From Chlorogloea sp. CCALA 695 (GTDB lineage Bacteria > Cyanobacteriota > Cyanobacteriia > Cyanobacteriales > Chroococcidiopsidaceae): a stretch of 40,256 nucleotides of DNA. The stretch lies in assembly GCF_003003885.1 (NCBI RefSeq), contig NZ_PVWN01000042.1:1-40256 (forward strand). The letters are read 5' to 3'. Positions 6,048 to 38,077 of this stretch are shown here, piece after piece. Below the pieces are notes generated by a model. It was not told the DNA's origin. It searched no databases and was given only the letters and a program-made list of their open reading frames with translations. How positions within the stretch are numbered: the first letter of the stretch is position 1; each line of letters opens with the position of its first letter. A program made the position numbers and the translations under genes.

Positions 6048-6092
6048 ACTGCTTATCTCCATTAAATAGGGTGAATAATGTAGTCCTGACTT

Positions 6093-17307: not shown

Positions 17308-17355
17308 TATTTATTTTTGATACTAGTTCGTTATACCCGTTATGTGCAGCCTTAG

Positions 17356-18063: not shown

Positions 18064-18208
18064 GTTTATTGAAAAACAGTCAACATTAAGAAAAATTTTC
18101 GTGGGTTAAATCGTTGATAGTAAAGATTTTAGCTGAGAGGACTAAGTTACAATAGTTCTCAGTACAAGCTTTACTGGAAGGTCTTTGTCTCACTTTAAGC
18201 AAAGGGCA

Positions 18209-18240
18209 TTGACAATCGCATCTTATCCCACAATACAAGA
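18209..18240 (+). promoter_or_regulatory. Possible promoter for the 150-residue protein gene
   Basis: A perfect TTGACA at 18209-18214 is followed at 16-17 bp by the weak -10-like CAATAC/AATACA, about 35 bp upstream of the downstream start codon. The -10 match is poor, so this is only a candidate. Confidence 0.25.
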
Positions 18241-18274
18241 ATTAAAGGCTTTTTAAGTCTGTTTTTTATTCATC

Positions 18275-18727
18275 ATGCTTACTCAACATCGCAAGCCTGT
18301 AAGTTTGTCTCTAGTCTCCACAGACCTACCCCTATGGTCAGTTGTAGAAACTGCTGCAACACTATATCAAAAAACCTGCGAACAGTTCCATATAGTCTTG
18401 CACGAACCACCGTTGCAGCAGTTAGAACTAGCTACTCCTCGTTTACTCTGGCTTGATATTTCCCCTTACCGGGTAACAATGAGTATGCAAGCAAGCGGTA
18501 AAGTAAGTTATCGTCACTCATGGCAACAAGGCGCTTATGGGTATAGCTACTATTGGTTGCAAAGTCAATCATTCAAACCTCAAGAGCAATTGCGATTGCG
18601 TAATTTTACCTGTAATTTAAAATTGGTTGGGCAAACTTTGCCGGAAAATTTGCGTTTGGAATATGAGTTATGGTCGGAAAAAGTGCAAATGGGACGCTAT
18701 ACACTGAATTTAGATATTCACCATTAA
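18275..18727 (+). CDS. Conserved cyanobacterial-type hypothetical protein
   Basis: I do not recognise a domain in this 150-residue soluble protein. It has no signal peptide or membrane segment. The N-terminal half is mixed (WSVVETAATLYQKTCEQFHIVLHE), and the C-terminal half looks beta-rich (SPYRVTMSMQASGKVSYRHSW, LRLRNFTCNLKLVG, MGRYTLNLDIHH), with many aromatic residues. It precedes the multicopper oxidase gene on the same strand by 103 bp, but a candidate operator lies between them, so shared function is not implied. Confidence 0.6.
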   Translation: MLTQHRKPVSLSLVSTDLPLWSVVETAATLYQKTCEQFHIVLHEPPLQQLELATPRLLWLDISPYRVTMSMQASGKVSYRHSWQQGAYGYSYYWLQSQSFKPQEQLRLRNFTCNLKLVGQTLPENLRLEYELWSEKVQMGRYTLNLDIHH

Positions 18728-18785
18728 CTTATTGCGAATCATTGACGATAAGAGTGCGATGACCTATACTAATCATCGGATGTAT

Positions 18786-18802
18786 TTGCAAATAATTTGC
18801 AA
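18786..18802 (+). promoter_or_regulatory. Candidate operator, 7-3-7 inverted repeat
   Basis: A perfect palindrome, TTGCAAA-TAA-TTTGCAA, ends 28 bp before the start codon of the multicopper oxidase, the first gene of the iron cluster. The size and symmetry suit a dimeric regulator. It does not match the classical Fur box. Confidence 0.4.
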
Positions 18803-18830
18803 CAACTAGGAAGCGGCGCGATCTCACAAC

Positions 18831-19832
18831 ATGGGAAACGATACACTACAAACTAAGGCAAAGCTATTATTGAGTCGCAGACAATTTTTAGAAGTTGCTT
18901 TAGCCGGGGTAGGTGTTACGGGTGCAGCCTTTGCTTATCAAGCACTCAATCAAAAGTCTACACCTGTGCGAATCCCGAACATCTCCTCTAATGACTTGCC
19001 AAAAGATAGCAATAACCCGATGGCAATCTTGCGGGATTTTGATTATGGAACGGTAAAGCGGGAAAAAGGACGGACGGTTAGAGAGTATAAAATTGTTGCT
19101 GAAAATTCAACAATTGCTTTAAATAGTGCCGTTGATTTTAATACTTGGAACTTTAATAATCGCATCCCAGGGCCAACACTAAGGGCAACTCAAGGCGATC
19201 GCATCCGGGTAGTATTTTACAATAATGGCGGACATTCCCATTCTATGCACTTTCACGGTATTCATCCGGCGGAAGCTGATGGTTTGCGCCCTGTACGTCA
19301 CGGAAATGCGGCAATTTATGAATTTGATGCCGAACCTTTTGGCGTTCAATTATACCATTGCCATGTTGAACCTGTAACACGGCACATTAGCAAGGGATTG
19401 TATGGAATGTTGATTATCGATCCGCCCAAACCTCGCCCCCCGGCTGATGAAATCGTGCTAGTTATGGGAGGATTTGATACAAACGATGATAACAAAAATG
19501 AGTTTTACGCCTTCAATGGGCAACCAAATTATTATAAAACTCATCCGATTCCTATCTATCAAAATCAGCTAGTGCGGCTTTATTTGCTTAACATGATTGA
19601 GTTCGATCCGGCAGCTACTTTTCACCTCCATGCTAACTTTTTTCAAGTTTATAGAACGGGTAGAACTCTTAAACCTACGGAAGAAAGCGACGTAATTACA
19701 ATGGGGACGGCGGAGAGACATATTTTAGAATTTGCTTACAAATATCCGGGCAAATATATGTTCCATCCTCATCAAGATGCGATCGCCCAAGAGGGATGTA
19801 TGGGTTTATTTGAAGTTTTTCCAGCAATTTAG
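18831..19832 (+). CDS. Two-domain multicopper oxidase, probable ferroxidase (Tat-exported)
   Basis: A copper oxidase with a twin-arginine signal (SRRQFLEVALAGVGVTGAAFA, R16-R17), so it is exported folded. Two cupredoxin domains are seen. Domain 1 holds HFHG (H140, H142) and HCH (H176-C177-H178) with H185 and M193, a full type-1 site plus trinuclear-cluster ligands. Domain 2 has HLH (265-267) and HPH (312-314) but no cysteine, so no second type-1 site. That arrangement corresponds to type C two-domain oxidases, which trimerise. Its position upstream of ferritin-like and FTR1 genes points to Fe2+ oxidation for uptake. Nitrite-reductase-like activity is a less likely alternative because eight His in HxH pairs are present. 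Confidence 0.85.
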   Translation: MGNDTLQTKAKLLLSRRQFLEVALAGVGVTGAAFAYQALNQKSTPVRIPNISSNDLPKDSNNPMAILRDFDYGTVKREKGRTVREYKIVAENSTIALNSAVDFNTWNFNNRIPGPTLRATQGDRIRVVFYNNGGHSHSMHFHGIHPAEADGLRPVRHGNAAIYEFDAEPFGVQLYHCHVEPVTRHISKGLYGMLIIDPPKPRPPADEIVLVMGGFDTNDDNKNEFYAFNGQPNYYKTHPIPIYQNQLVRLYLLNMIEFDPAATFHLHANFFQVYRTGRTLKPTEESDVITMGTAERHILEFAYKYPGKYMFHPHQDAIAQEGCMGLFEVFPAI

Positions 19833-19863
19833 TAAAGTTTTTCACTCACAGTAAATAAATACC

Positions 19864-20865
19864 ATGTCTATTCTACGATTTTTGTCTCTCACTTTTGCGG
19901 CGGCTATGCTCTCAGTTTTATTTAGCTGCAATCAAACGCCATCTGTTACAACGCCAAATGTTGCGCCTAGTAACGTTTCTAGTCCTGTGGTAGTTGCAAG
20001 CAAAAACAGAATTAATATTAATAATGCTATTTTATCGGAGTTAGATAAATTAGAGGCAAAGTTAGGTATTCCGGCTTTATCTAACCAAATTCAAGCCCAA
20101 CGTCCTTATGGCAGCCCTGAAGAATTAGTAAGTAAAAAGGTAATTAATCAAGCTCAATACGAGCAAATTAAAGACATGGTGACAATTGAGGATATTGTGC
20201 TTACAGGTGTTGCTAAAGATGTCGATTACATGACTAAGTTGGGATTAATGAAGGGACACTTGTTCGTGGCTAAAGAACTCCTAGACTTACAAAAACCCGC
20301 TCAAGCTGAACCTCATATTGGACATCCAGTAGAAGAAATTTATGTAGATGTAGAGGATCAATTAAACGAGCGTAATGTCCCAGAATTTAAAACAAGTTTG
20401 ATTAGTTTGCAAGACTTGGTGAAAGCTAAATCTGCAAAAATAGATACTAATTTTACTGAAGCTGTAAAATCGGTAGATAATGCGATCGCATTTTTGCCAG
20501 ACGCAATGCGATCTTCGCCAGAATTTGTCTTACAAGTAATCAACGGATTGCTAGACACGGCTAATTCTGAATATACCGCAGCGATCGCCAATGGCAAAAT
20601 ATCCGCCGCCATTGAGTATCAAGACTCGCGTGGTTTTGTTATTTATGCAGAGGAGTTATACAAAGGTATTTCCAGCCAAGTAAGCGCCGCAAGTGCAGAT
20701 ACCGATAAATTGATTGCTAGTAACATGAGCGAATTAAGTAAAAATTGGCCCTCTGTGATTCCTCCCGCTACGCCTGTAAATCCTCCTGCTGTAGTTACAC
20801 AGTTGATTAAAACCATTGAAAAAGAGTCGCAGAAAGTGTTAGACAGTAATACCACTACTAACTAA
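19864..20865 (+). CDS. Helix-hairpin-helix lipoprotein with imelysin/EfeO-like region
   Basis: A 333-residue probable lipoprotein: the signal ends in lipobox LFSC with C22. A Ser/Pro/Thr linker follows, then a ComEA-like helix-hairpin-helix unit (res. ~49-106, RININNAILSELDKL to AQYEQIKDMV). Residues ~120-275 are helical and contain LGLMKGHLFVAKELL and HIGHPVEEIY (H151, H154, E157, E158), an HxxE arrangement resembling the metal site of imelysin/EfeO/EfeM proteins. I infer a periplasm-facing metal-binding or iron-delivery partner for the adjacent oxidase and FTR1 permease. The HHH unit need not bind DNA here. It lies 31 bp after the oxidase gene. Confidence 0.65.
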   Translation: MSILRFLSLTFAAAMLSVLFSCNQTPSVTTPNVAPSNVSSPVVVASKNRININNAILSELDKLEAKLGIPALSNQIQAQRPYGSPEELVSKKVINQAQYEQIKDMVTIEDIVLTGVAKDVDYMTKLGLMKGHLFVAKELLDLQKPAQAEPHIGHPVEEIYVDVEDQLNERNVPEFKTSLISLQDLVKAKSAKIDTNFTEAVKSVDNAIAFLPDAMRSSPEFVLQVINGLLDTANSEYTAAIANGKISAAIEYQDSRGFVIYAEELYKGISSQVSAASADTDKLIASNMSELSKNWPSVIPPATPVNPPAVVTQLIKTIEKESQKVLDSNTTTN

Positions 20866-20873
20866 TAAAAAAT

Positions 20874-21320
20874 ATGCGCGAACTTGACCAAGAAAAAGCG
20901 ATTACTTTGCTTAACTCCATCATGGAATGCGAATTGGCGGGAGTAGTACGTTATACTCATTATTCCTTGATGGTGACAGGCCCCAATCGCATCCCGATTG
21001 TAGATTTTTTTAAAATGCAAGCAACCGAATCTCTTACCCACGCCCAGCAAGTAGGGGAAATCCTCACAGGGTTAGAAGGACATCCCAGTTTAAAAATTGC
21101 GTCAATGGAAGAAACTTTCCAACATTCAGTCAAAAATATTCTGGAAGAAAGTTTGAATCACGAAAAGCGCGCGTTAGACTTGTATAAATTGTTGCTTGAG
21201 ACGGTCAGTGATGCTAGCGTCTATTTAGAAGAATTTGCGCGGACAATGATCGGTACGGAAGAATTGCATAACATAGAAATAAAAAAAATGTTGCGTGATT
21301 TTAGCGGTAGTGCGGTTTAA
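20874..21320 (+). CDS. Ferritin-like (bacterioferritin-type) protein
   Basis: A 148-residue four-helix-bundle iron protein. The pattern follows bacterioferritin: ECELAGVVRYTHY (E20), ATESLTHAQQVGEIL (E52, H56), EESLNHEKRALDLY, and GTEELHNIEIKK with ExxH at 129-132. The first metal motif has ExxxH spacing rather than ExxH, and the haem-ligand methionine of E. coli bacterioferritin is replaced at the aligned site. It may therefore be a haem-free variant. It starts 8 bp after the lipoprotein gene. The likely role is iron storage or detoxification coupled to uptake. Confidence 0.8.
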   Translation: MRELDQEKAITLLNSIMECELAGVVRYTHYSLMVTGPNRIPIVDFFKMQATESLTHAQQVGEILTGLEGHPSLKIASMEETFQHSVKNILEESLNHEKRALDLYKLLLETVSDASVYLEEFARTMIGTEELHNIEIKKMLRDFSGSAV

Positions 21321-21334
21321 AGACATCCAAAAAC

Positions 21335-21371
21335 TAATGTAGAGACGTTGCATTGCAACGTCTCTACATTA
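21335..21371. repeat. Perfect 37 bp palindromic repeat (cyanobacterial dispersed type)
   Basis: Arms of 18 bp (TAATGTAGAGACGTTGCA and its complement) around a single T. It lies between the ferritin-like and FTR1 genes. The core GTAGAGACGTTGCA...TGCAACGTCTCTAC is a form I know as frequent in Nostoc-like genomes. It can fold into a strong RNA hairpin and may lower readthrough into FTR1, but it has no T-run on the plus strand. Confidence 0.85.
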
Positions 21372-21414
21372 AAATTCCTATTTCCGCCAAAATTAAAATA
21401 CCAAAAATAAACTT

Positions 21415-22374
21415 ATGAATTTTAGTGCGGCTATACCTACATTTGTAATTACTCTTCGCGAAGGAGTAGAAGCAGCATTAGTAGTAGGAATCGTACTTGC
21501 TTGCTTAAAAAAAGCTGGACAAAAGCGATTAAACTCTTGGGTTTACGCGGGTGTAGGAGTAGGAATAGTTGTTAGTGCTTTAGTGGGAATACTTTTTAGC
21601 CTCTTAATCCCTATTATTAGCGCCGCTAATCCAAAGTACACGACGGTAGTTGAACCCTTATTAGAGGGAGGATTTAGTGTAATTGCGATCGCCATGCTGA
21701 GTTGGATGTTAGTGTGGATGACTAGCCAAGCTAGATTTATGAAGGCGCAAGTAGAAGGAACAATTAGCGCGGCTTTGCAAGACAAAAATGCTGGCTGGGG
21801 CGTTTTCACCTTGATTTTGATTGCTGTAGTGCGAGAAGGCTTTGAAACCGTACTATTTATTACTGCCAACTTTCAACAAGGCTTATTCCCGGCTTTTGGG
21901 GCTGTAGCAGGGGTTTTAACCGCCGCCTTTATAGGAGTATTGCTGTTTCAATGGGGAGTCAAAATTAACATTCGTTTGTTTTTTAAAACTATGGGGGTGT
22001 TATTGCTACTAATTGTCGCCGGATTAGTTGTCTCTGCTTTAGGACACTTTGACGTAGCTTTTGCAACGTTGTCACAAATGGATCGATCTTCTCAAGGCTT
22101 ATGCTTTTACTACGAACGATTTACTAAAAATCCTTCCTGTATTTTAGGCGCAAGAGTTTGGAATACATCAAAAATACTGCCCGATGACCAGTTTCCAGGA
22201 GTAGTATTTAATGCTTTGTTTGGCTATACAGAAAATCTGTTTATTGTGCAAGCTATCGCTTACGTCGTGTTTTTGCTAACTATAGGTAGTATCTATTTTC
22301 GGAGTTTAGGCGGTAAAGTAAATAAAAAAACTGAGCCTTCACTTCAATTACCGTTAAGCACAGGGCGAGATTAA
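21415..22374 (+). CDS. FTR1 family high-affinity iron permease
   Basis: A polytopic inner-membrane iron transporter. Both REGxE iron-binding motifs are present: REGVE at 15-19 (TLREGVEAALVVGIVLA) and REGFE at 140-144 (VVREGFETVLFI). About seven hydrophobic segments are spread over 319 residues, the last at ~280-300. Between helices lies a Cys/aromatic-rich external loop (CFYYERFTKNPSCILGARVW). FTR1 permeases work with a ferroxidase, and a multicopper oxidase is encoded three genes upstream. No EfeO/EfeB-type genes are adjacent except the imelysin-like lipoprotein. Confidence 0.92.
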   Translation: MNFSAAIPTFVITLREGVEAALVVGIVLACLKKAGQKRLNSWVYAGVGVGIVVSALVGILFSLLIPIISAANPKYTTVVEPLLEGGFSVIAIAMLSWMLVWMTSQARFMKAQVEGTISAALQDKNAGWGVFTLILIAVVREGFETVLFITANFQQGLFPAFGAVAGVLTAAFIGVLLFQWGVKINIRLFFKTMGVLLLLIVAGLVVSALGHFDVAFATLSQMDRSSQGLCFYYERFTKNPSCILGARVWNTSKILPDDQFPGVVFNALFGYTENLFIVQAIAYVVFLLTIGSIYFRSLGGKVNKKTEPSLQLPLSTGRD

Positions 22375-27338: not shown

Positions 27339-27656
27339 TTAAGCCGTTTTTTGTTGCAAATATTGCCAAACTTGGCGCAAACCAAACCACCGTTGAAACG
27401 ACCACATTAAGGAGGTAGGAATAGTTACCCAGACAGGGTATTTAGCAAAAGCGGGTTGATTCTTTTCAAAAATAAAGTGTCCGCCTATAGCCAACACTTG
27501 CGTTAAAACTAAGCAAACCACCGTCAGCCGCCAATCGTAGAATAAAATGAATGGAGAGGCGATCGCTAAAATATTAGTAATATGGTGCAATAGTTGATTA
27601 ATGGGGTGCTGGTGACACTGGGCAAAATAAACTTTAGCTTCTTGAAAATAAGTCAA
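27339..27656 (-). CDS. Mpo1-like (DUF962) membrane protein
   Basis: A 105-residue Mpo1/DUF962 family protein. Key family blocks are CHQHPINQLLHHI (res. ~14-26) and GGHFIFEKNQPAF (~58-70), with the histidines that bind Fe2+ in yeast Mpo1. Hydrophobic segments are at ~30-55 and ~75-90. Yeast Mpo1 is an iron-dependent dioxygenase that shortens 2-hydroxy fatty acids during phytosphingosine breakdown. Here the gene follows a fatty-acid hydroxylase-superfamily gene by 25 bp, so an acyl hydroxylation and alpha-oxidation pair is an attractive inference. The bacterial function is not proven. Confidence 0.78.
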   Translation of the reverse strand: MTYFQEAKVYFAQCHQHPINQLLHHITNILAIASPFILFYDWRLTVVCLVLTQVLAIGGHFIFEKNQPAFAKYPVWVTIPTSLMWSFQRWFGLRQVWQYLQQKTA

Positions 27657-27681: not shown

Positions 27682-28185
27682 TTACCACCATCGCAGTTGT
27701 AGCAAGTTCCGCTCTGGCTGACTCAATTCCTCTTCTGTTAACCAATCTACCAACTTGTAAGTACCAAAAACTTTATCCCACCAATCTACAGCTAAACCAA
27801 AATTGTGATCCCACATTCCGTACTTATGATGAACGTAATGAACGGGCATTTTCATCCAAAAACACTTAGTGGGGTTTTCGTGTTGGAGTTGATGAGCATA
27901 AGCGGAGAAAGCAGCGTATGCAAGACTACCCAAAAGCCAGCCAATACCCGCAATCCAAGAGTACAGGAACATCGCCGCGATTAAAACAATAGCTCCTTGG
28001 ATATAATCTCGAAATTCCCACAGTACACCTTGTCCGATGTTCTTTCGATGGTGTTCTAAGTGACGCGCGCCGACTTTTTTTGAGACGTGCATCAATCGAT
28101 GCAGCCAATACTCTAATAAACTTGCTAAGACAAAAGCTAAAGTAAAACAAAAAACCGCCAAAGATACGTCTGACGCTTTCAGCAT
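27682..28185 (-). CDS. Fatty acid hydroxylase / sterol desaturase superfamily protein
   Basis: A 167-residue membrane di-iron oxygenase of the fatty-acid hydroxylase superfamily. The histidine clusters are HRLMH (near res. 29-33), HLEHHRK (~42-48), HQLQH (~97-101) and HYVHHKYG (~115-122), followed by the typical VDWWDKVFGTYK. Hydrophobic segments are at ~8-25 and ~60-90. It is short compared with eukaryotic sphingolipid C4-hydroxylases or fatty-acid 2-hydroxylases. Carotenoid hydroxylase is another possibility. It has a GGAGG ribosome site and is divergent from the GH3-like gene by 71 bp. Confidence 0.85.
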   Translation of the reverse strand: MLKASDVSLAVFCFTLAFVLASLLEYWLHRLMHVSKKVGARHLEHHRKNIGQGVLWEFRDYIQGAIVLIAAMFLYSWIAGIGWLLGSLAYAAFSAYAHQLQHENPTKCFWMKMPVHYVHHKYGMWDHNFGLAVDWWDKVFGTYKLVDWLTEEELSQPERNLLQLRWW

Positions 28186-28256: not shown

Positions 28257-29930
28257 ATGGCAAATTTCTTACTTCCCCTTCTAACTACTGTCGCTAATCA
28301 AGTTAAAAATAACTTTATCCAAAAAACTCGACAAACAAACGCTGTTCAAGAACAATTTTTGCGAAAGCTACTTTTTGCGTATCAAAATACTGAGCTTGGA
28401 CGCGCTTACAAAATCGGCGAAATCAAAACTATAGATCAGTTTAGAAGCCGTATTCCCGTTTTACCTTATAGCAGTTACGAGCGATTGTGCGATCGCATTG
28501 CCAAAGGAGAACAAAATATTCTTACTAGCGACCCGGTAGTATATTTTAATCTTACTAGCGGTTCTACGAGCAAGCAAAAGCTAATTCCCGTTACTAAACG
28601 TTTTCAAAATTCCTTACTTCAACCCAATCTCACCAGCATCGGCTTTTTACAGGAAGCCTTGAAATCCCAAGGGCGCAAATTTGGCAAACTTCTAGCCACA
28701 AATTCCGTCCAACTTGTCGGGACAACTAGCGGCGGTATTGACTACGGGACTGCAAGTGTGGGAGTTTTACGCATGGGAAAGTTTGTCTACGAACAACTAT
28801 TTGCTCATCCTTACGAAACTTTGCAGCCTGCCGATAGTTTAGCTCGTCATTATATTTGCTTGTTATTTGCTTTAGCAAACCCCAATTTGCGCGGAATTGG
28901 GGCAAATTTTCCGATGTTGGTATTGCGAATCTGCAACTATTTAGAGCTTTACACCGAAGACTTAATTAAGGATTTGGAAACCGGAAAAATCGCTAGTTGG
29001 TTAAGTTTAGAGCCAGAAGTTCGCGCCCTTTTAGAACGACAAATAGTGGCAAACCCCCGTCGCGCCGCGCAATTAAGAGAAATTTACAAGTCTCATGGCA
29101 TCTTGACTCCAAAACTTGCTTGGTCTAACCTATCTTTTGTGGCTACGGCGCGGGGCGGCACGTCTGATTTTTACTTTGAGCGATTTCCTACTTACTTTGA
29201 GGATACACCGGGTTTTGGAGCGGTTTATTCCTCCGCCGAAGGCACGTTTAGCATTAACCACGCTCTCAATACCGATGGTAGTATTTTAGCGATTGAAAGT
29301 GGCTTTTTTGAGTTTATCCCCCAAGACCAATGGGAAGCGGCTCATCCCCAAACTTTACTCGCAACAGAAGTTAAACCGGGGGAACTTTACCGGATTTTAG
29401 TGACTAATTACAGTGGCTTTTACCGTTACGATATTGGCGATGTGGTTGAAGTTGTGGGTTTTTACGAGCAAGCGCCGTTGCTCGTATTTCGCTATCGTCG
29501 CGGTGGGTTGATTTCCTCTACTACAGAAAAAACTACCGAGTTTCATGTAACTAAAGTAATGCAAGACTTGCAGCAAAAATTCTCTGTACTTTTAGAAGAT
29601 TTTTGTATAACTTTATCCGACGAGACACTTCCGCCTTCTTACCTTGTCAACATTGAACTCGCGCCTGGTGAAATCTTAGAAGATTATTCAGGATTTTTAA
29701 CAGCTTTCGATCTATTGCTGCAAGAAAATAATACTTCCTACGCAATTAAACGTCCCGATCCTATTCCCTCCCCACGCTTGCGAGTGCTTGCGTTGGGAAG
29801 CTTTGCGATTGTACGTCAGCGTCAGTTGCTTAAAGGCATTCCCGATTCTCAACTAAAATTTCCGCATATCAGCGATGATCGCAATTTTCTATCAGGGTTA
29901 AAGGTAGAGCAAGAAATTAGACTTGATTAA
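28257..29930 (+). CDS. GH3 family adenylate-forming enzyme
   Basis: A 557-residue member of the GH3 superfamily, the plant auxin- and jasmonate-amino-acid synthetase group. These enzymes adenylate a carboxylic acid and usually pass it to an amine. The nucleotide-binding motif is LTSGSTSKQKLIPVT (res. 99-113). The C-terminal part shows EVKPGELYRILVTNYSGFYRYDIGDVV, the second ATP motif, and VFRYRRGG. Bacterial members are poorly characterised. It lies divergent to the hydroxylase/Mpo1-like genes, and its end overlaps that of the convergent transporter gene by four bases. It could conjugate or activate a fatty acid. Confidence 0.85.
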   Translation: MANFLLPLLTTVANQVKNNFIQKTRQTNAVQEQFLRKLLFAYQNTELGRAYKIGEIKTIDQFRSRIPVLPYSSYERLCDRIAKGEQNILTSDPVVYFNLTSGSTSKQKLIPVTKRFQNSLLQPNLTSIGFLQEALKSQGRKFGKLLATNSVQLVGTTSGGIDYGTASVGVLRMGKFVYEQLFAHPYETLQPADSLARHYICLLFALANPNLRGIGANFPMLVLRICNYLELYTEDLIKDLETGKIASWLSLEPEVRALLERQIVANPRRAAQLREIYKSHGILTPKLAWSNLSFVATARGGTSDFYFERFPTYFEDTPGFGAVYSSAEGTFSINHALNTDGSILAIESGFFEFIPQDQWEAAHPQTLLATEVKPGELYRILVTNYSGFYRYDIGDVVEVVGFYEQAPLLVFRYRRGGLISSTTEKTTEFHVTKVMQDLQQKFSVLLEDFCITLSDETLPPSYLVNIELAPGEILEDYSGFLTAFDLLLQENNTSYAIKRPDPIPSPRLRVLALGSFAIVRQRQLLKGIPDSQLKFPHISDDRNFLSGLKVEQEIRLD

Positions 29931-31102
29931 CCATCTTGACTCAACAACATTAAAACTCCCGCCGTAATCGCCACAAGCGCCGCCCCATAAAAAACTGTTT
30001 CTAATCCACCATAATTAAACATTGGTCTAAGAATAATTGGAGATAAAAACTGTCCCAAAAACCCCGCTCCTGTACCCGCCGCTAAAACACTCGATCGCAA
30101 ATTGGGGATAGCAAGATTGGCTAAAGCGCTATAAACGTTGGGTAACACTAGCCCAAACCCTACACCAAACAAAATCGCCGTGAAAATAATGGGGCCGATT
30201 GTGTGCAGTAAAGGTATAAGTATCAATGTTATAGCCATCAATGTACAGCCCATTGCGATCGCCCTAGGCAACCCCAATTTCTGCGCCACCCCTTTGCTCC
30301 CAAAAGCGGAAATAGCCGCCGCTCCGATGGCTCTTGAAGCTAAGACAACACCGTTTAAAACTGCCCCCGCCCCAATTGTGGTTTTGAGGTAAAGCGGCGC
30401 GTAAATCACCACTGCATACATGGCAACAGATACCAATAGCAACGTAAGTAACAACCATAAAGTTTGAGGTTGTCTTAAAACTTGGCTTAATTTGTAGTTT
30501 ATTTCCTTTGCCAGGGCTGGTTTTTTGTCTTTCCTCAAAACTACCCTTGCTAAAATAGCTAAAGGCAGTCCTAAAGCGTAAAGATAAAAAGTATATTGCC
30601 AGTTATTAGCCCCCACGAAGCCCCCAAGAAGCGGGAACAAAATTCCTGTAATTGTTAGGGTGCTGGTAGCGTAGCCTAGTGCTACACTTCGGGACTCTCC
30701 TTCGTAGTTACTGCCTAATAACCCCAAACTAGCGGCGGCGATTCCTCCACTAGCTGCGCCAATCAAACCCCGCGTCACTAATAAGGGGATAAAACTGGAC
30801 ATAAAAGCTCCCGCTACCCCAAATAGAGCGTAACAAAATAGCGAAGCAACTAACACTTTTACTCGCCCTAGGCGGTCTGCCAGAATGCCCAATAAAGGGC
30901 TAAACAAAGCCAAGGTGAGACAATGGACGCTAACTAAATTGGCAGCCAGTCCCGGATCTAGTTGGAGTTGTTGTACTATATCGGGTAGAACCGGGGCGAT
31001 TACACCCCCCGCCATAGTAGTTAGGGAACCAGATGCTAAAAGGATTAATAACTTAGGATCGTTTAGTTTCAAAAAATTATCGCTCGTTTTGTCTACAGTC
31101 AA
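29927..31102 (-). CDS. MFS transporter (drug/metabolite efflux type)
   Basis: A 12-helix major-facilitator protein of 391 residues. It has the loop 2-3 signature GILADRLGRVKVLV (res. ~70-83) and the efflux-type motif C region near helix 5 (ATSTLTITGILFPLLGGFVG). No ATG is available before the first helix; the frame starts at TTG 31102 without a clear ribosome site. It is divergent from the Rieske oxygenase gene, with an 8-11-8 inverted repeat between them, suggesting shared control. The substrate is unknown; a product of this neighbourhood is possible. Confidence 0.85.
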   Translation of the reverse strand: MTVDKTSDNFLKLNDPKLLILLASGSLTTMAGGVIAPVLPDIVQQLQLDPGLAANLVSVHCLTLALFSPLLGILADRLGRVKVLVASLFCYALFGVAGAFMSSFIPLLVTRGLIGAASGGIAAASLGLLGSNYEGESRSVALGYATSTLTITGILFPLLGGFVGANNWQYTFYLYALGLPLAILARVVLRKDKKPALAKEINYKLSQVLRQPQTLWLLLTLLLVSVAMYAVVIYAPLYLKTTIGAGAVLNGVVLASRAIGAAAISAFGSKGVAQKLGLPRAIAMGCTLMAITLILIPLLHTIGPIIFTAILFGVGFGLVLPNVYSALANLAIPNLRSSVLAAGTGAGFLGQFLSPIILRPMFNYGGLETVFYGAALVAITAGVLMLLSQDG

Positions 31103-31158: not shown

Positions 31159-31219
31159 TTTTGACTAAAAAAATCCTTAACGCTAAATTTTGTCATAGAA
31201 GTTGTCAACAATACCGATA

Positions 31220-32284
31220 ATGAAGCAACTAGCCCCAAATTTAACTAGCCAAGTAGTCGAAAATAATGTCCGCGAAGTAGGTATAAATCCTAACTATTGG
31301 TATGCGGTAGGGTGGGCAGACAGACTAAAAATTGGGGAAATCATGCCTGTGGTTATTTGGTCACAGGCGATCGCAATTTACCGCGACGAACTAGGTCAAA
31401 TCCATGCCCTAGAGGACGCGTGTCCCCACAAAGGCGTTGCCCTCCATCAGGGTGCAGTAACGGGCTGTAATCTTGCTTGTGGGTATCATGGGTGGGAATT
31501 TAACGGCGAAGGGGATTGTGTCAATATTCCCTACTTACCCAAAACCCAAAAGCTACCCCGCGCCCAAACCCGTAGTTATCCAGTAGAGGAAAAATATAAT
31601 GTAATTTGGCTATTTCCGGGCGATCGCGCTTTAGCTAACACCCAAAACTTACCAGATATTCCCGAACTCAGTCAAAAAGAATGGTTAGTAGTTCCTTTGT
31701 CTGCCCACTTTCAGGCACATTTTTCAATCTGCAATGAAAATACTATGGATGTATTTCATGGCTTTTTGCACCAAAAATTACAAGGTTGGTTCGATCCGGT
31801 ACTTGTAAACTTGCGCGAGACAGAAACCGCCGTTTGCGCCGATTATCAAGTTTCCTATCGCGGGTGGATGGCTAAATTTTTGGGACTAAGCGAAAAAGCC
31901 GACCAAGTTACAACTTTACCCGTAGCAGTTCAGTATCATTACCCTAACTACTACACAACTTTGCAAGGAGTTTCTAGCCTGTACCTTTTTAGATTGCCCG
32001 TAAGTGCTACAGAAAGTAGGTCTTTTGCGTTGTTTTTCTTTAAAGTTCGTCTACCGCAGTCAATTTTAAAACCGTTACAGCCATTGTTACAAAAGCTGCT
32101 AAGGCGTTTAGTATTAGAGAAATTTTTAGCTCAAGATATAGAGATGATTGAAAGCGAACAACGGACTTATTTAGCTAACCGCGATCGCCGTTACGTCGAA
32201 ATCAACCCAGCAATCATTGCTATTCAACGATTAATTGTGCGACAGTACGAACAATTTTTACAACAATCTAGTCAAAAAAAATGA
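31220..32284 (+). CDS. Rieske non-haem iron oxygenase (alpha subunit type)
   Basis: A Rieske oxygenase of ~354 residues. The Rieske cluster ligands are in CPH (C68, H70) and CGYH (C87, H90). The mononuclear iron site is NENTMDVFHGFLH (D177, H180, H184 in this numbering). I chose the ATG at 31220; an in-frame TTG at 31202 adds six residues, and neither has a clear ribosome site. No C-terminal transmembrane helices are seen, unlike the plant PAO/Tic55 type. Members hydroxylate or desaturate aromatic, sterol or lipid-like substrates. No reductase is adjacent, so it probably takes electrons from ferredoxin. It lies directly upstream of the ceramide-like cassette. Confidence 0.88.
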   Translation: MKQLAPNLTSQVVENNVREVGINPNYWYAVGWADRLKIGEIMPVVIWSQAIAIYRDELGQIHALEDACPHKGVALHQGAVTGCNLACGYHGWEFNGEGDCVNIPYLPKTQKLPRAQTRSYPVEEKYNVIWLFPGDRALANTQNLPDIPELSQKEWLVVPLSAHFQAHFSICNENTMDVFHGFLHQKLQGWFDPVLVNLRETETAVCADYQVSYRGWMAKFLGLSEKADQVTTLPVAVQYHYPNYYTTLQGVSSLYLFRLPVSATESRSFALFFFKVRLPQSILKPLQPLLQKLLRRLVLEKFLAQDIEMIESEQRTYLANRDRRYVEINPAIIAIQRLIVRQYEQFLQQSSQKK

Positions 32285-32467: not shown

Positions 32468-33748
32468 GTGCAAGTTATCAAAGAGTATGTTCAACGCTGG
32501 TATGAAAGTGGACTCGAGCCTGAGGAGTATATTTGTCATCAAAAGCAAGGAAACTTAGTAGAAATTGAAGAAGCAGCTACCGGAAGTCGCCAAACTGCTC
32601 TGACTTTTTGTACTAATGATGTATTAGGGCTAGTTCATAACGAAGCTGTAAAGCAAGCGGCAATAGACGCAATTATTCAGTATGGCACGTCTAATAGCTC
32701 TTGCTCGGTTTTGAGCGGTCGCATTGACCTACATAGACAGCTAGAAGCAGAAATATCTGATTTTAAGCATCTACCCCATACCCAACTATTTCTCAATGCT
32801 TGGATGGCGATGCAAGCGTTGATGGATGCCTTTTGTCACTTGGCAATTCCCGTACCAGGGTTTACTCATACTCGCGAAACTTTGATTTTGACCGATGTGC
32901 TAAATCACGGCTGTATTGTTTCGGCAGTTGTTAATGCTGGAACTCGGTCGGGTAAGGTGTTTGGGCATAGTCCCAACGTTAGAGTAAAAGCTTATCGTCA
33001 CTGCGACGTAGAAGACTTGGCGCGCAAGTTACGCAGGTATGTCCGCCCAGGTGATCGCATTATGGTAGTTTCTGATGCCGTATTCTCAATGGATGGAGAT
33101 ATTGCCCCGCTCCCAGCCATGATAGAGGTGATGCAAAACTATCCTGGTAGCGTGCTATTAATGGACGAAGCCCACGCAAGCGGCTCGATAGGAGCTACCG
33201 GACGCGGCATTTACGAGCATTTTGGTATTTTACCTAGCCATGCAATTGAAAAGGGCATTATCCCCCTGATTATGACTACTTTTTCTAAGTTTGCCGCTTC
33301 GGCGGGTGCAGCAATTAGCACTCATGTTAGGGAACTAATCCCGTTACTAAACGTATCGCCTACTTCTATTGGCACAATTTCTTTACCGCCACCTTTAGCA
33401 GGAGCAGCTTTAGAGAGCATTCGACAAGTGCGGAAATCACCCGAAATAGTACAGCAATTGCAAGCAAATACTCAATACTTGCGATCACGTTTAACTGAGC
33501 GTGGTTTTACAGCTATTGGCGAAACTAACGTAATTCCCGTCATTTTACCGCCTGAAATTAATCCAAAAATGTTTGGCAAACAAATGATGGTTAATTACGG
33601 TCTTTGGGTGTCGCCGATTTGGTTTATAGCCAAGCCTCGCATCCGTATTACCGTTAATGCCCTCCATACTCAGCAGGAAATGGATCGTTTGGTTGCCGGA
33701 ATGGTAGCAACTAGAGATTTGTTGTATGAACCAACAATTAGTGCTTAA
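32468..33748 (+). CDS. spt: Serine palmitoyltransferase-like alpha-oxoamine synthase
   Basis: A PLP enzyme that condenses an amino acid with an acyl thioester, releasing CO2. The catalytic set of the family is complete (numbering from this start): H147 in LNHG stacking on PLP, D233 and H236 in LLMDEAHASG, and Schiff-base K274 in TTFSKFAAS. GRIDLHRQLE and DAVFSMDGDIAPLP are also typical. I prefer the GTG at 32468 because GAGGGGAG lies 7 nt before it; the longer frame starts at TTG 32441. A ~13-residue insertion (LAIPVPGFTHTRE) precedes the NHG strand. Downstream N-acyltransferase and reductase genes favour serine palmitoyltransferase over biotin (KAPA) or glycine acetyltransferase function. 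CqsA-like signalling synthase is the main alternative. Confidence 0.78.
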   Translation: MQVIKEYVQRWYESGLEPEEYICHQKQGNLVEIEEAATGSRQTALTFCTNDVLGLVHNEAVKQAAIDAIIQYGTSNSSCSVLSGRIDLHRQLEAEISDFKHLPHTQLFLNAWMAMQALMDAFCHLAIPVPGFTHTRETLILTDVLNHGCIVSAVVNAGTRSGKVFGHSPNVRVKAYRHCDVEDLARKLRRYVRPGDRIMVVSDAVFSMDGDIAPLPAMIEVMQNYPGSVLLMDEAHASGSIGATGRGIYEHFGILPSHAIEKGIIPLIMTTFSKFAASAGAAISTHVRELIPLLNVSPTSIGTISLPPPLAGAALESIRQVRKSPEIVQQLQANTQYLRSRLTERGFTAIGETNVIPVILPPEINPKMFGKQMMVNYGLWVSPIWFIAKPRIRITVNALHTQQEMDRLVAGMVATRDLLYEPTISA

Positions 33749-33778
33749 TTGGTGATGGGTAATTGGTAATTGGTAATC
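33744..33778. repeat. Heptanucleotide tandem repeat (GGTAATT-like)
   Basis: Four to five imperfect 7-mers in a row (CTTAATT, GGTGATG, GGTAATT, GGTAATT, GGTAATC) begin at the stop codon of the alpha-oxoamine synthase gene. Such short tandem heptads are common in larger cyanobacterial genomes. No function is apparent. Confidence 0.7.
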
Positions 33779-33843
33779 AACTATTAGTTCTTAATTAGTT
33801 AACTGTTGGCTAATAACTAACAGCTTATTAACCAAATTTATTT

Positions 33844-34977
33844 GTGTCAAACTCAAATTTTCAGATCCGGGCAGTAACAAACAAAGCCGACAGCGAGATA
33901 TTTTTAGATGTCCCTAGTCGGGTATATAAGGGCGATGCTAACTGGGTTCCACCAATCCGGAGCGGCGTTGCCAAACAATTTGCCCCAGAAAATTCATTTT
34001 TTCAGTATGGCAAGTTGCAACAGTTTATAGCCGTATCTCCCAGTAATGAGCCTTTGGGCAGAATAGTTGCTGCTGTTAACCATCGTTTAATTGAAACTGA
34101 AGGTAAAGATGTTGGGTTGTTTGGCTATTTTGAGTGTGTAGAAGACTATGCGATCGCTCAAGCGTTGCTAAAATCTGCCCGTAAATGGCTGCAAGATCAA
34201 GGTATGGCAGTTATTAGAGGGCCCATCGATTTATCTACTCATAACAACTGTTTGTTTTTAGTTGATGGCTTCGATTCGCCACCAATGATTTTGATGCCCT
34301 ATAATCCGCGTTATTATCCAGAATTTATGCAGCTTGATGGCTGGAATAAAGCAAAAGATGCCTATGCTTACGAATTACCCATCGGTGCAGGATTATCAGA
34401 AGAATTTACAAAGGCGCATAGAATTGCTTGCAAATCTGGCGTTAACTTTCGGCTAATTAGAACCAAAGGCGCAGCTTTTGAGGAAGATTGCCACAACCTT
34501 TACAATTTGCTCAATGCCGCCTATTCAAACAACTGGAGTTATACGCCGCGCACCGAAGAAGAATTTTTAGCTGAGGCTAAATCCTTACAAAGTATAGTAG
34601 ATCCCGACGCTTTCCCGATTGCTGAATATGAAGGGAAGATGATTGGCTGTTTTGTGGGATTGCCAGACTACAATATGGTGCTAAAACATCTAGGCGGAAA
34701 ACTAGATTGGCTAGGAACTTTAAAATTTCTGTGGTATCGGCGACAAATAAATAGAGGGAGAGTAGCTTTAGTTTGCGCGTTGCCCGAATATCGCCGCAAA
34801 ATGGTGGCAGCAGCTTTAATCTATTTAGGAATGCAAGGCGTACTTAAGGAAGGAAAACCTTACAAAGATTGCGAACTTTCTTGGGTGTATGAAGATAATT
34901 ACCCATCTCGCAAATTGATCGAAGCTTGCGGAGCCAAAATTTATAAAACCTATCGCATTTACGAAAAAGCTTTATGA
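33844..34977 (+). CDS. GNAT-fold N-acyltransferase, candidate bacterial ceramide synthase (bCerS-like)
   Basis: A 377-residue acyltransferase with the GNAT fold. Visible are FLDVPSRVYKGDANWVPPI at the N-terminus, the strand EPLGRIVAAVNHR, the conserved RGPIDLSTHNNCLFLVDGFDSPP block (res. ~125-150), and a C-terminal GNAT-like core with VALVCALPEYRRKMVAAALIYLGM and CELSWVYEDNYPSRKLIEACGA. In Caulobacter a protein of this type acylates 3-ketosphinganine to give oxidised ceramide. The start is GTG with no strong ribosome site. It overlaps the next gene by four bases and follows the synthase by 95 bp. Assignment rests on family and order; acylation of another amine is possible. Confidence 0.72.
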   Translation: MSNSNFQIRAVTNKADSEIFLDVPSRVYKGDANWVPPIRSGVAKQFAPENSFFQYGKLQQFIAVSPSNEPLGRIVAAVNHRLIETEGKDVGLFGYFECVEDYAIAQALLKSARKWLQDQGMAVIRGPIDLSTHNNCLFLVDGFDSPPMILMPYNPRYYPEFMQLDGWNKAKDAYAYELPIGAGLSEEFTKAHRIACKSGVNFRLIRTKGAAFEEDCHNLYNLLNAAYSNNWSYTPRTEEEFLAEAKSLQSIVDPDAFPIAEYEGKMIGCFVGLPDYNMVLKHLGGKLDWLGTLKFLWYRRQINRGRVALVCALPEYRRKMVAAALIYLGMQGVLKEGKPYKDCELSWVYEDNYPSRKLIEACGAKIYKTYRIYEKAL

Positions 34978-35930
34978 AAGCGCTAGTTACTGGGGCGAAT
35001 GGGTTTACAGGTTCTCACTTAGTAAAAGTTTTAGTAAATAATGGCGATCGCGTTATTGGTTTAGTTAGAAAGTCGAGCAACTTAGATCGTTTAGCTAATT
35101 GTGACATTGAGCTAGTCTATGGAGACATTACAGATTCCGCCGCCTTACAGCAAGCGATCTCCGGGGTAGATGTAGTTTTTCATACCGCCGCCTATGTAGA
35201 GATAGGAATTGTCAACGAAAAAGAAATGGAGCGAGTAAACGTAGAAGGAACCCGCACCGTGTTAGAAGTTGCCAAAGCTTGCAATGTTAGTAAAATAGTT
35301 TATTGCAGTACCATCGGCATATTTGGTGATACTGGGGGGCAAGCTATTAATGAAGGATTTAAACGTACTCAACAAGGCTTTTCTTCAGCTTACGATCGCA
35401 CAAAGTACCTTGCTCAAGAATTAGTCGATAGTTTTGCATCCCAAGGATTGCCCGTAGTAAGCATTTTGCCTTCTGGCATTTTTGGCGCAGACGATCCACA
35501 TTTTCGCCCTATATTGCAGCAATTTATCAACAGAAAGCTAAAACTGTGGGCAGGAGGAAGTCGCGTTACGGGCATTGTTCATGTAGACGACTTAGCCGCC
35601 GCGATGATTCTAGCCGCCGAAAAAGGCATTAATGGAGACAAATACATTATTTCCGCCGGAGACTTAACAACGAAAGAAATGTTTGCAACCATGGCAAGCT
35701 TTACAGGCATTCCCGCACCCCGCGAAGCCCCTAAATGGTTAGTTAGGCTTGCCGGAAACCTGTTAGATCCTTTAGGGAGGTTATTTAAATTTCAACCACC
35801 TCTAAGCCGGGAAAGAGTGCATTATATATACGATCGCTGCGTGAGAGTATATGCTACTAAAGCCCGTACAGAATTAGACTGGCAACCCCGCTCGGTGACA
35901 GAAACTTTAAAAGAATTAGTTACTCTTTGA
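34974..35930 (+). CDS. Extended SDR / NAD-dependent epimerase family, candidate ceramide reductase (CerR-like)
   Basis: A 318-residue Rossmann-fold oxidoreductase. It has the dinucleotide motif TGANGFTGSH (res. 6-15), an acid-rich DITD turn (51-54) and a catalytic YDRTK (Y140, K144) with S112 upstream. This extended SDR class includes sugar epimerases, dihydroflavonol reductases and the CerR protein that reduces the 3-keto group of oxidised ceramide in Caulobacter. Start and stop overlap (ATGA) with the acyltransferase gene, meaning tight coupling. The gene order synthase-acyltransferase-reductase mirrors the reaction order. The substrate is inferred. Confidence 0.74.
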   Translation: MKALVTGANGFTGSHLVKVLVNNGDRVIGLVRKSSNLDRLANCDIELVYGDITDSAALQQAISGVDVVFHTAAYVEIGIVNEKEMERVNVEGTRTVLEVAKACNVSKIVYCSTIGIFGDTGGQAINEGFKRTQQGFSSAYDRTKYLAQELVDSFASQGLPVVSILPSGIFGADDPHFRPILQQFINRKLKLWAGGSRVTGIVHVDDLAAAMILAAEKGINGDKYIISAGDLTTKEMFATMASFTGIPAPREAPKWLVRLAGNLLDPLGRLFKFQPPLSRERVHYIYDRCVRVYATKARTELDWQPRSVTETLKELVTL

Positions 35931-36663
35931 GCGTCCCATCTTCCAAATAAGTAACGCTATCAGCGACATCAATAATACGCGGATCGTGCGTCACCATCAG
36001 CACTGTACAACCTTGCTCTTTCGCCAAAGCACGCAATAATTCAATTACTGAATGTCCGCTTTTTGAATCCAACGCCGCCGTTGGTTCGTCTGCCATAATT
36101 AATTGAGGAGAACCTGCTAAAGCCCGCGCGATCGCTACTCGTTGTTTTTGTCCTCCAGATAAATCGCTGGGTTTTTGCTCTGCCTGATTTTCTAAGCCTA
36201 CTTGCCCTAATAGCACCTGTGCTTGATGCTTTGCAGTTTTTCTATTTATTCCCTGAATATTTAGCGCCACTTCAATGTTTTCGCTGGCGGTGAGTGCGGG
36301 AAATAAGTTGAAATTTTGAAAAATAAAGCCAATATTTTGCTGTCTAAATTTCGCTAATTTTTGGCGAGACATACTTGTAATATCTTCACCTAATAAACTT
36401 ACTTTCCCTCTAGTTGGTGTCATCAACCCAGCCAAAATAGAGAGCAAAGTAGTTTTACCCGAACCCGACGGGCCCATTAGTAACTGAATATTGCCTTTGG
36501 GAATTGCTAAATCTATACCTTTCAATATTTGAAAGCATCGTTTTTGAGATTTAAACTCCATTTCCACACCCTTAGCAACAATTACTTTACTTTGGGTAGT
36601 AACCAAATCAATACCTAGAGCTTCAATTTGATTAGGAAAATTTTTAAACTTAGCAGCAGTCAT
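35920..36663 (-). CDS. ABC transporter ATP-binding protein (DevA/MacB/LolD-type)
   Basis: The ATPase of an ABC transporter that works with an FtsX-like permease. It has Walker A GPSGSGKTT (res. 64-72), the Q-loop IGFIFQNFNLFP, signature LSGGQKQR, Walker B LIMADEP and the switch His in VTHDPR. An unusual ~30-residue N-terminal extension precedes the domain. It follows the permease gene on the same strand, 178 bp away. Its 3' end overlaps the convergent CerR-like gene by 11 bp. DevBCA systems export glycolipids in heterocyst-forming relatives, so lipid export is a possible role. Confidence 0.9.
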   Translation of the reverse strand: MTAAKFKNFPNQIEALGIDLVTTQSKVIVAKGVEMEFKSQKRCFQILKGIDLAIPKGNIQLLMGPSGSGKTTLLSILAGLMTPTRGKVSLLGEDITSMSRQKLAKFRQQNIGFIFQNFNLFPALTASENIEVALNIQGINRKTAKHQAQVLLGQVGLENQAEQKPSDLSGGQKQRVAIARALAGSPQLIMADEPTAALDSKSGHSVIELLRALAKEQGCTVLMVTHDPRIIDVADSVTYLEDGTLKE

Positions 36664-36841: not shown

Positions 36842-38077
36842 CTAGGCTTTGAATACCGACGCTGGATCGAGGTGCATAACTTTTTGAATAGCAAAAACTC
36901 CCGACCCTACACACATTACTACCGTGATTCCCAAAACTGCGATCGCAATAGTAGGTGTAATTAAAATCAAGATCCCCTGACTTGCCAGCGTCCAAGCCGA
37001 TACCCCCCAACAAAGCGCCATACTTGGCAAGTAGCCCAAAATTGCCATCCATAAAGCTTGTTCGAGAATTACACTATAGATAGTAAAATCGGACGCTCCC
37101 ATTGCTTTTAAAGTTCCAAACTCTTTGAGGCGATCGGATACTGAGGCGTAAAGAATTTGTCCGACAATAATACCCCCAACGATTACACCTACCACTGCAC
37201 CCAAAGCCAAAATAAAACCAATACCCGTCCTTTGTTGCCAAAAAGCTTGAGTTCTTTGCATTAATTCGGCGTGAGTATAGGCGCTAGTATTAGGTAAAGC
37301 GGCAATTAATCTTCGCTTCAATGCTGCTAAGTCTTGCCCTTTTTGAGCGCGAATTAAGACAAAAGTAATTGTATCTGCGGAAGTTAGCCTTTTAGGGGCA
37401 ATAGCATTAGGATCGGCTTTGATGTAGCTATTGGTACATTTAAGGTCTTCCGAGTCTGATGGCAATCGACAGGATAAATTAGTAGTTTGCCCAGAATTAG
37501 CATAGGCGTTGGCGTTTTCTAAAGATGTAAATATATAAGGATTGGAAATAATCGAGCGATTGCCTGTAGTTAAACCGACTAATTGAATAGATAAAGTGCT
37601 AAGTTCAGCGCGATCGCCAATTTTATTGAGATTTAAAGACTTTAAGTTAGAAGCGTCTACTATTGCTGTGTAAGGATCTTTGAGCTTAGTGATATTTCCT
37701 TGAGTAACGTTTTGAGGTATAAATAGCTGCCCATTAGGGTCAAATCCAATAATTCTAGCTAAAGAAATCTCATTGTTGTTACGCCATACACCAGTTTTAA
37801 CAATCAAGGCTTCAGCGCTTTCTACTCCTACAACTTGGCGAGAAAGACTTAAATTAGTTAGCGGAATTGGTAAAGTTAGTTCAAGATGTACCAAATTTTC
37901 CGACGCTACCCAAATATCTGCCGAAGAATTGGTCATTAACTGCGCTGTAGAGCGCGTAAAGCCGTTGAAAATCCCTGTTTGAATCGTAACTAAGCTCACA
38001 GCAAACATAATTCCAGCTTGAGCGACAAGAAAGCGGGGAATATCCTCAAGCAAATGTTTACGAGCAATAGAAACCAT
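36842..38077 (-). CDS. ABC transporter permease (DevC-like, FtsX/MacB fold)
   Basis: A 411-residue permease with one N-terminal transmembrane segment (FLVAQAGIMFAVSLVTIQTGIF), a large periplasmic domain (res. ~40-275) and three C-terminal helices (GFILALGAVVGVIVGGIIVG; AILGYLPSMALCWG; ITPTIAIAVLGITVVMC). It is the DevC/LolC/MacB layout used for exporting lipids, peptides or lipoproteins. The membrane-fusion partner DevB, normally upstream, is absent from the window; the next gene upstream is the divergent acetyl-CoA synthetase. Part of the complex must therefore be encoded elsewhere, or the pair works alone. Confidence 0.87.
   Translation of the reverse strand: MVSIARKHLLEDIPRFLVAQAGIMFAVSLVTIQTGIFNGFTRSTAQLMTNSSADIWVASENLVHLELTLPIPLTNLSLSRQVVGVESAEALIVKTGVWRNNNEISLARIIGFDPNGQLFIPQNVTQGNITKLKDPYTAIVDASNLKSLNLNKIGDRAELSTLSIQLVGLTTGNRSIISNPYIFTSLENANAYANSGQTTNLSCRLPSDSEDLKCTNSYIKADPNAIAPKRLTSADTITFVLIRAQKGQDLAALKRRLIAALPNTSAYTHAELMQRTQAFWQQRTGIGFILALGAVVGVIVGGIIVGQILYASVSDRLKEFGTLKAMGASDFTIYSVILEQALWMAILGYLPSMALCWGVSAWTLASQGILILITPTIAIAVLGITVVMCVGSGVFAIQKVMHLDPASVFKA

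Follow-up and report, generated by a model that had tools for sequence, protein, structure and literature searches.

We analysed a stretch of 40,256 bp, referred to as the window, which is contig NZ_PVWN01000042.1 of the cyanobacterium Chlorogloea sp. CCALA 695 (a genome of 5.2 Mb on 168 contigs). Our subject is a cassette of three forward-strand reading frames in series, coding for an alpha-oxoamine synthase (AOAS), a GNAT-type acyltransferase and an extended short-chain dehydrogenase/reductase (SDR), together with the genes around it (Table 1). A first-pass annotation, made from the sequence letters, had described three consecutive same-strand genes in this order, with an ATGA overlap between the last two. 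We confirm that all three genes are intact and located where they had been placed, and the four-base overlap between the end of the GNAT gene and the start of the SDR gene is present. The longest possible AOAS frame opens at TTG 32441. GTG 32468 is probably the best start, because GAGGGGAG is found 7 bases ahead of it and because the AOAS frame of Leptolyngbya sp. PCC 7375 (locus L111) starts at the homologous GTG, with a stop codon just upstream. With a gap of 95 bp between the AOAS and GNAT genes, the cassette may be transcribed as one unit. As the window also codes for phycobilisome linkers (5289-6062 and 9865-10743), it is cyanobacterial, and contamination could be ruled out as the origin of the cassette.

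The grouping of the three genes is more than chance, because a close homologue of the AOAS gene occurs within the 1.5-kb flanks of 25 of 30 GNAT loci (related genomes, the window being counted), and the same is true for the SDR gene (25 of 30). The distribution of the genes was determined in 291 cyanobacterial genomes, with presence defined by E-values of 1e-100 or better for AOAS and of 1e-60 for GNAT and SDR. AOAS is found in 22 genomes, GNAT and SDR in 23 each. All 22 genomes with AOAS hold GNAT and SDR as well, while 268 of the 269 others hold neither at these cut-offs. The 23 carriers are spread over 14 family codes. As the genomes are related and Fisher tests on co-occurrence ignore kinship, the values of such tests overstate significance. 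Co-occurrence cannot be explained by linkage alone, because the core genes are far apart in several carriers. G067 and G316, each a genome on a single contig, have AOAS, GNAT and SDR more than 100 kb from one another. In G027 and G055 the AOAS gene adjoins that for GNAT, with SDR, a GH3-type amido synthetase and a fatty acid hydroxylase encoded far off.

Four additional window genes follow the same pattern. GH3 was found in 17 of the 291 genomes, a close orthologue of the fatty acid hydroxylase in 20, and a close orthologue of a Rieske oxygenase in 16, in each case exclusively within the 23 carriers, 7 of which thus have no close Rieske orthologue. A gene for an Mpo1-like protein occurs in 15 of 67 genomes, all 15 being carriers; this sample consists of the 23 carriers and of 44 non-carriers that were hand-picked from genomes already listed. 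The cut-offs for close orthologues (E < 1e-130 for the Rieske protein, E < 1e-70 for the fatty acid hydroxylase) were set after a gap in the scores had been seen. Looser matches beyond the 23 carriers exist in 36 genomes for the Rieske protein and in 6 genomes for the fatty acid hydroxylase, and a looser match is the sole Rieske match in carriers G030, G057 and G316. Because close orthologues of these four genes track the genomes that have the cassette, the feature amounts to a module of some seven genes, whose loci are in part dispersed.

A scan with an AOAS alignment resulted in at least 80 loci, of which 34 are window-like. Among the matches listed, 32 of these 34 carry cyanobacterial names; the other two are a contig that is filed under Tatlockia and one from a metagenome-assembled genome (MAG) of a gammaproteobacterium. 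The remaining 46 have at most 34% sequence identity. Some carriers are strains from culture collections, for example Baaleninema simplex PCC 7105 and Leptolyngbya sp. PCC 7375. The genes accompanying AOAS were counted over the 34 window-like loci listed, using only those with a match or with enough flank, so that the number of assessable loci varies. A Rieske gene is present at 30 of 31 loci (weakly matching in L100 and L102), GNAT at 25 of 32, SDR at 18 of 28, GH3 at 11 of 25, the fatty acid hydroxylase at 10 of 20 and the Mpo1-like gene at 5 of 19 (for the transporters see Table 1). The Rieske protein was considered as an obligatory core member, being nearly universal at these loci, but with a close orthologue in only 16 of the 23 carriers it is regarded as accessory.

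Some of these loci deserve a comment. The Tatlockia-filed contig (L088, JACCVJ010000530.1) shares 89-99% identity with the window across 11 genes and is most likely a cyanobacterial contig that was misbinned in a gammaproteobacterial assembly. The contig from the Gammaproteobacteria MAG (L118, 1-8729) codes for an SDR fragment, an AOAS of the clade (55%) and GNAT, followed after the cassette by an ABC ATPase, which is fused to a cyclic-nucleotide-binding domain, and by an FtsX permease; this represents either a transfer or another case of misbinning. In Leptolyngbya sp. PCC 7375 the Rieske frame (L111, 6788-7894) has one in-frame TAG, due either to decay or to a sequencing error.

Over 98-99% of its length and with 28-34% identity, the window GNAT aligns with GNATs from Rubrobacter, Sphingomonas parapaucimobilis, Escherichia coli (YghO), Pseudomonas veronii and Streptomyces, all of which are encoded near an AOAS from the serine palmitoyltransferase (SPT) clade. 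The E. coli and Sphingomonas proteins served as proxies for the sequence of Caulobacter CC_1154. In a tree of 22 rows, cyanobacterial and cassette GNATs form a group of 20 rows (support 95/92). The rows from Rhizobium and Tunicatimonas are outside, on long branches, with no AOAS in the regions read; a GNAT from Diaphorobacter is inside the group, yet its region has no AOAS either. An AlphaFold model (pLDDT 79.9, poor for residues 130-153) matches tandem GNATs in structure comparison, N-myristoyltransferases being lower in the list. By full-length homology and tree, we assign the window GNAT to the CC_1154/YghO family of bacterial ceramide synthases, in agreement with its earlier labelling as bCerS-like. 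In the literature, Caulobacter CC_1154 and E. coli yghO are listed as one gene, called aca, that is needed for dihydroceramide (PMC9386255), CC_1154 is named cerS in PMC11324152, and bCerS is described in PMC11087976. Fatty acid desaturase genes were seen next to GNAT on two occasions, between GNAT and SDR in Leptolyngbya sp. PCC 7375 (L111, 10552-11652) and adjoining GNAT in Sphingomonas (L039, 8771-9865).

The AOAS had been called serine palmitoyltransferase-like with all residues for pyridoxal phosphate (PLP), and the second part of this label stands. Its PLP and active-site residues are H156, D242, H245, T280, K283 and R402 (numbering of the 435-aa protein). We take the SPT catalytic residues to be, in the numbering of S. 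paucimobilis, the PLP lysine K265 together with H159, D231, H234, T262 and R390. All six are kept in the window AOAS and in seven aligned relatives, but they are common to KBL, BioF and HemA and hence are not specific for SPT. The best NCBIfam score was obtained with the model for the KAPA synthase BioF (229 bits), which is below the cut-off of 426; two glycine C-acetyltransferase models also score below their cut-offs (188 of 460 and 164 of 493 bits). Three insertions mark the clade of the window AOAS. In eight aligned clade sequences the GSR motif of SPT is replaced by SC[SEH] or, in L108, by SAA; members outside this alignment have T for C. We read this as a separate subfamily whose substrate recognition is probably altered. 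What we show for this enzyme is its catalytic residues and a predicted fold, while the length of the acyl chain is inferred. A third AOAS domain is encoded in the same genome (G000:C57, 122762-123802), within an open frame of 2493 aa; with an alphaproteobacterial SPT model it scores 232 bits, compared to 120 bits for the window AOAS.

Taken together, we assign a probability of about two in three to the reading that a scattered minority of cyanobacteria have a dedicated module to make, hydroxylate and turn over a ceramide-like lipid with an N-acylated long-chain base. This reading is based on families, residues and co-occurrence, from which we infer every reaction. It is favoured by the co-occurrence in the 291 genomes, by a GNAT of the bCerS/YghO family and by the gene order in Rubrobacter and Streptomyces (see below). 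Furthermore, when solved sequences were searched with a profile of the AOAS clade, SPT from Sphingobacterium was found first (161 bits), followed by KBL (143 bits).

In the proposed pathway, AOAS would use an amino acid, with serine as a first guess for the donor, and a long-chain acyl thioester to form a 3-keto long-chain base. GNAT, as expected from its family, would N-acylate this base, and the SDR would reduce the 3-keto group, leading to a dihydroceramide-like lipid. The order of these two steps is borrowed from one model for Caulobacter, that of PMC11087976, and may not hold here; the opposite order is argued for in PMC11324152. Families and co-occurrence suggest that the fatty acid hydroxylase and, in most carriers, the Rieske protein may hydroxylate the base or the acyl chain, comparable to phyto- and 2-hydroxy-ceramides. 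The Mpo1-like protein might handle 2-hydroxy fatty acids that are released by turnover, and GH3 could form an amide in an ATP-dependent reaction, either as a headgroup or for the re-use of free fatty acid. The neighbouring DevAC-like and MFS transporters may perhaps export or move the lipid, as their position suggests. For its acyl groups the pathway would depend on general fatty acid metabolism, because no acyl carrier protein (ACP) was found near the cassette.

A series of observations weighs against this reading, beginning with AOAS itself. It scores 160, 157 and 122 bits with the NCBIfam SPT models, the cut-offs being 640, 500 and 670 bits. In the AOAS tree, the window clade is a single branch (100/100) whose stem measures 2.28. 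It falls outside the clades of SPT (8 rows, 99/94) and KBL and apart from the rows of BioF. This tree has 56 rows; of 57 given, L107 was lost (the extracted frame having 11 aa), L105, L109 and L111 had been left out due to short frames, and CqsA was not included. Holding the window clade together with SPT (p 0.155), KBL (p 0.054) or BioF (p 0.455) is not rejected by topology tests, the groups having been chosen once the tree had been seen; a firm placement with KAPA synthases or KBL, which the first-pass annotation had named as grounds for refutation, was thus not found. By profile-profile comparison the clade scores 514 with BioF, 437 with SPT and 357 with KBL, while the SPT, KBL and BioF sets score 662-823 among each other, so that the clade is farther from these three than they are from one another. 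In a Foldseek search, the promiscuous AOAS ThaOS is the top structure, SPT ranks tenth, and all AOAS classes are about equally near. The P-A-T-P substrate loop of SPT is changed to WFIAKP, with a 4-residue deletion, in eight clade sequences, which is unlike SPT, KBL and BioF alike. With cut-offs missed, substrate loops replaced and a position outside the SPT clade in the tree, the assignment of AOAS to SPT by family is not supported.

The partners contribute further points of this kind. The window SDR scores 149 bits with HpnA and up to 170 bits with other extended SDRs, compared to 54-101 bits with cassette SDRs. No GNAT-family gene was detected in the flanks of the 46 distant AOAS loci (L122-L167) at an E-value of 1e-6. 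Genome G326 is the one exception to the co-occurrence of the core genes, as it has GNAT, SDR, Rieske and GH3 genes without the clade AOAS, perhaps because of a gap or a loss. The Rieske protein has the [2Fe-2S] motif; for the mononuclear iron site, however, a search with a strict pattern gave no match. Finally, a loose pattern for the ACP serine motif occurs in the window only at 8171 and 11823, more than 20 kb from the cassette (an ACP with a differing motif would escape it). The lack of a visible dedicated ACP, pointed out in the first-pass annotation, is thus borne out, and a specialised ACP beside spt, as in the rhodobacterial five-gene ceramide system, was not found within the window.

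The SDR had been described as extended and CerR-like. The Rossmann motif and YxxxK are present, as in all 19 SDRs compared, which makes them a weak criterion, and the backbone of the SDR tree is mostly without resolution (the L118 row being a fragment of 213 aa). We consider the window protein as a generic extended SDR which, judged by its scores, is nearer to HpnA than to CerR. A role as a reductase would be compatible with this.

Table 1. Genes of the proposed lipid module and adjacent genes in the window.
Feature and proposed role	Coordinates	Strand	Basis
Alpha-oxoamine synthase (AOAS), divergent clade; proposed long-chain-base (3-keto) synthase	32468..33748	+	Reading frame, start evidence, PLP residues, clade insertions, own clade
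Tandem-GNAT N-acyltransferase, bCerS/YghO (CC_1154) family; proposed N-acyltransferase	33844..34977	+	Homology, tree, predicted tandem-GNAT fold
Extended SDR, GxxGxxG and YxxxK; proposed keto reductase	34974..35930	+	Motifs; ATGA overlap with GNAT
Rieske oxygenase (SdmA/VanA-like); proposed chain or base hydroxylase	31202..32284	+	Family models, [2Fe-2S] motif
GH3-type acyl-acid amido synthetase, distantly OlsH-like	28257..29930	+	Family models
Fatty acid hydroxylase superfamily protein, four histidine motifs	27682..28185	-	Family model, motifs
Mpo1-like 2-hydroxy fatty acid dioxygenase family protein	27339..27656	-	Family model
MFS transporter, recurrent neighbour (association only)	29927..31102	-	Family model; 16/29 assessable loci
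DevA/LolD-type ABC ATPase, recurrent neighbour; candidate lipid exporter	35920..36663	-	Family model; 9/22 assessable loci
DevC-like permease, partner of the DevA-like ATPase	36842..38077	-	Family model

In the window, the genes for the Rieske protein, GH3, the fatty acid hydroxylase and the Mpo1-like protein are all located within about 5 kb upstream of the cassette. Those for the DevA- and DevC-like proteins are downstream and convergent with it. DevBCA is the exporter of heterocyst glycolipids, and Mpo1 acts in the breakdown of phytosphingosine in yeast. The GH3 protein scores 63 bits with the OlsH model (cut-off 620). A group of genes for manganese catalase, a multicopper oxidase, a ferritin-like protein and an FTR1 iron permease is found elsewhere in the window (15959-22371). 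Two plasmid regions are also recorded here: in Nostoc sp. C052 (L168, 705-6860) a nitric oxide synthase oxygenase is encoded between two SDRs, followed by a fatty acid desaturase and a class III aminotransferase, and in Planktothrix agardhii (L171, 1-6960) there is a row of P450s together with a phytoene/squalene synthase, an SDR and an FAD oxidoreductase.

A ceramide-like product could be made in two ways, which differ in the amino acid that is used by AOAS. The enzyme could be a divergent true serine palmitoyltransferase, leading to an ordinary (hydroxy)ceramide. We regard this as possible, at somewhat less than even odds. The bCerS-family partner and the SPT-like gene order would fit, as would the first rank of SPT among solved relatives and the unrejected grouping of the clade with SPT, and a fatty acid hydroxylase and an Mpo1-like protein would suit phytosphingolipid metabolism. 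On the other hand, the enzyme stays below the SPT cut-offs, forms a clade of its own and has both the GSR motif and the P-A-T-P loop replaced. The second option is that AOAS may take alanine, glycine, cysteate or another donor, as suggested by a subfamily of its own, whose distance to the SPT, KBL and BioF sets exceeds the distances among those three, and by diagnostic changes in the pockets for the amino acid and the acyl group. This would lead to a 1-deoxy-, a sulfono- or a new base, which is then N-acylated, reduced and hydroxylated. Non-serine sphingoid lipids have been reported for bacterial communities (PMC11334938). We give this option the same odds as the first.

A specialised metabolite instead of a membrane lipid, such as an N-acyl amino-ketone or an alkaloid that is tailored by the Rieske protein and exported by the MFS or ABC transporters, is considered improbable. 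The saxitoxin pathway also joins AOAS, GNAT and Rieske domains. Among solved Rieske relatives, SxtDIOX (73 bits) and SxtT (70 bits) come after DdmC (79 bits), transporters are nearby, and the distribution is patchy (22 of 291 genomes). However, in those neighbours of the cassette that were scanned with family models, no polyketide synthase, non-ribosomal peptide synthetase or amidinotransferase was detected. GNAT belongs to the bCerS family, the fatty acid hydroxylase and the Mpo1-like gene co-occur, and the genes of a metabolite cluster would not usually be dispersed. A saxitoxin-type cluster was therefore downgraded. It is very unlikely that two unrelated functions merely adjoin, AOAS being an additional BioF or KBL, and the Rieske protein and SDR being a sterol or terpenoid demethylase pair like SdmA/SdmB. 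In favour of this, kinship to BioF is not rejected (p 0.455), and the Rieske protein and the SDR score 243 bits with SdmA and 153 bits with SdmB. These scores are, however, far below the cut-offs of 600 bits, AOAS does not reach the BioF cut-off, and the genome has a further AOAS that groups with cyanobacterial BioF. Of the 23 carriers, 22 have AOAS, GNAT and SDR together, and 7 lack a close Rieske orthologue.

The ceramide-like lipid module resembles several known systems without being equivalent to any of them. It shares with the Caulobacter/rhodobacterial ceramide pathway (spt CC_1162, acpR, aasR, cerR CC_1164, bcerS CC_1154; PMC9386255, PMC11324152, PMC11087976) the combination of an AOAS, an N-acyltransferase of the CC_1154/YghO family and an SDR. 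It differs in that the window AOAS is outside the SPT clade, kinship of the SDR to CerR lacks support, no AcpR motif is nearby, and genes for a fatty acid hydroxylase, GH3, a Rieske and an Mpo1-like protein are added. Plasmid operons of Rubrobacter radiotolerans and Streptomyces sp. NBC_01001 have AOAS, GNAT and SDR from the same families, in the same order and on one strand. Their AOASs are inside the SPT clade, that from Rubrobacter being 42-46% identical to the nearest rows of this clade, in contrast to 26-31% for the window AOAS over its eight rows. The recurrence of this order with an SPT-clade AOAS, and the co-occurrence of the three genes across the phylum, support the proposed match to the ceramide route. 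The E. coli yghO cluster (an spt-like gene, ACP, SDR, fatty acyl-AMP ligase and yghO) has a GNAT that is homologous over 99% of the length (28% identity), but differs by having its own ACP and acyl ligase, by its lptFG neighbours, and by an SDR with 20% identity to that of the window. E. coli BL21 has an spt cluster of its own (PMC9386255). The lyso-ornithine lipid synthetase OlsH belongs to the GH3 family, like the window GH3, and uses ATP to form an acyl amide as part of lipid synthesis (PMC12493201).

Overall, the first-pass annotation was right in its observation and half right in its enzyme labels; the feature is larger and more coherent, as the upstream Rieske, GH3, fatty acid hydroxylase and Mpo1-like genes had been missed.

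Spt-like proteins have been extended to 38 phyla of Black Sea MAGs (PMC11334938). With respect to cyanobacteria, the authors of PMC8895605 write that they knew of no earlier study on how any of them makes sphingolipids. They report that no unbranched sphingolipids were found in Nostoc punctiforme, whose single AOAS (BioF) did not yield a keto-base in E. coli, and they cite two cyanobacterial ceramides, from Scytonema julianum and Moorea producens. Among the titles listed in our literature search, which did not reach subscription papers, none on a cyanobacterial ceramide gene cluster was encountered.

The occurrence of sphingolipids in cyanobacteria is thus an unsettled question, for which the module points to strains and genes that are worth testing. 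With it, the bacterial ceramide pathway would gain a further AOAS subfamily, along with a set of enzymes for oxidation and recycling. As a more speculative proposal, which may well turn out otherwise, the module might produce a new class of cyanobacterial ceramide-like lipid, with an AOAS that has its own donor, a bCerS-type GNAT, oxidation by the fatty acid hydroxylase and the Rieske protein, and recycling by the Mpo1-like protein and GH3. If this were true, the module would make up a complete circuit for both building and degrading the lipid, in convergence with the phytosphingolipid metabolism of plants and fungi.

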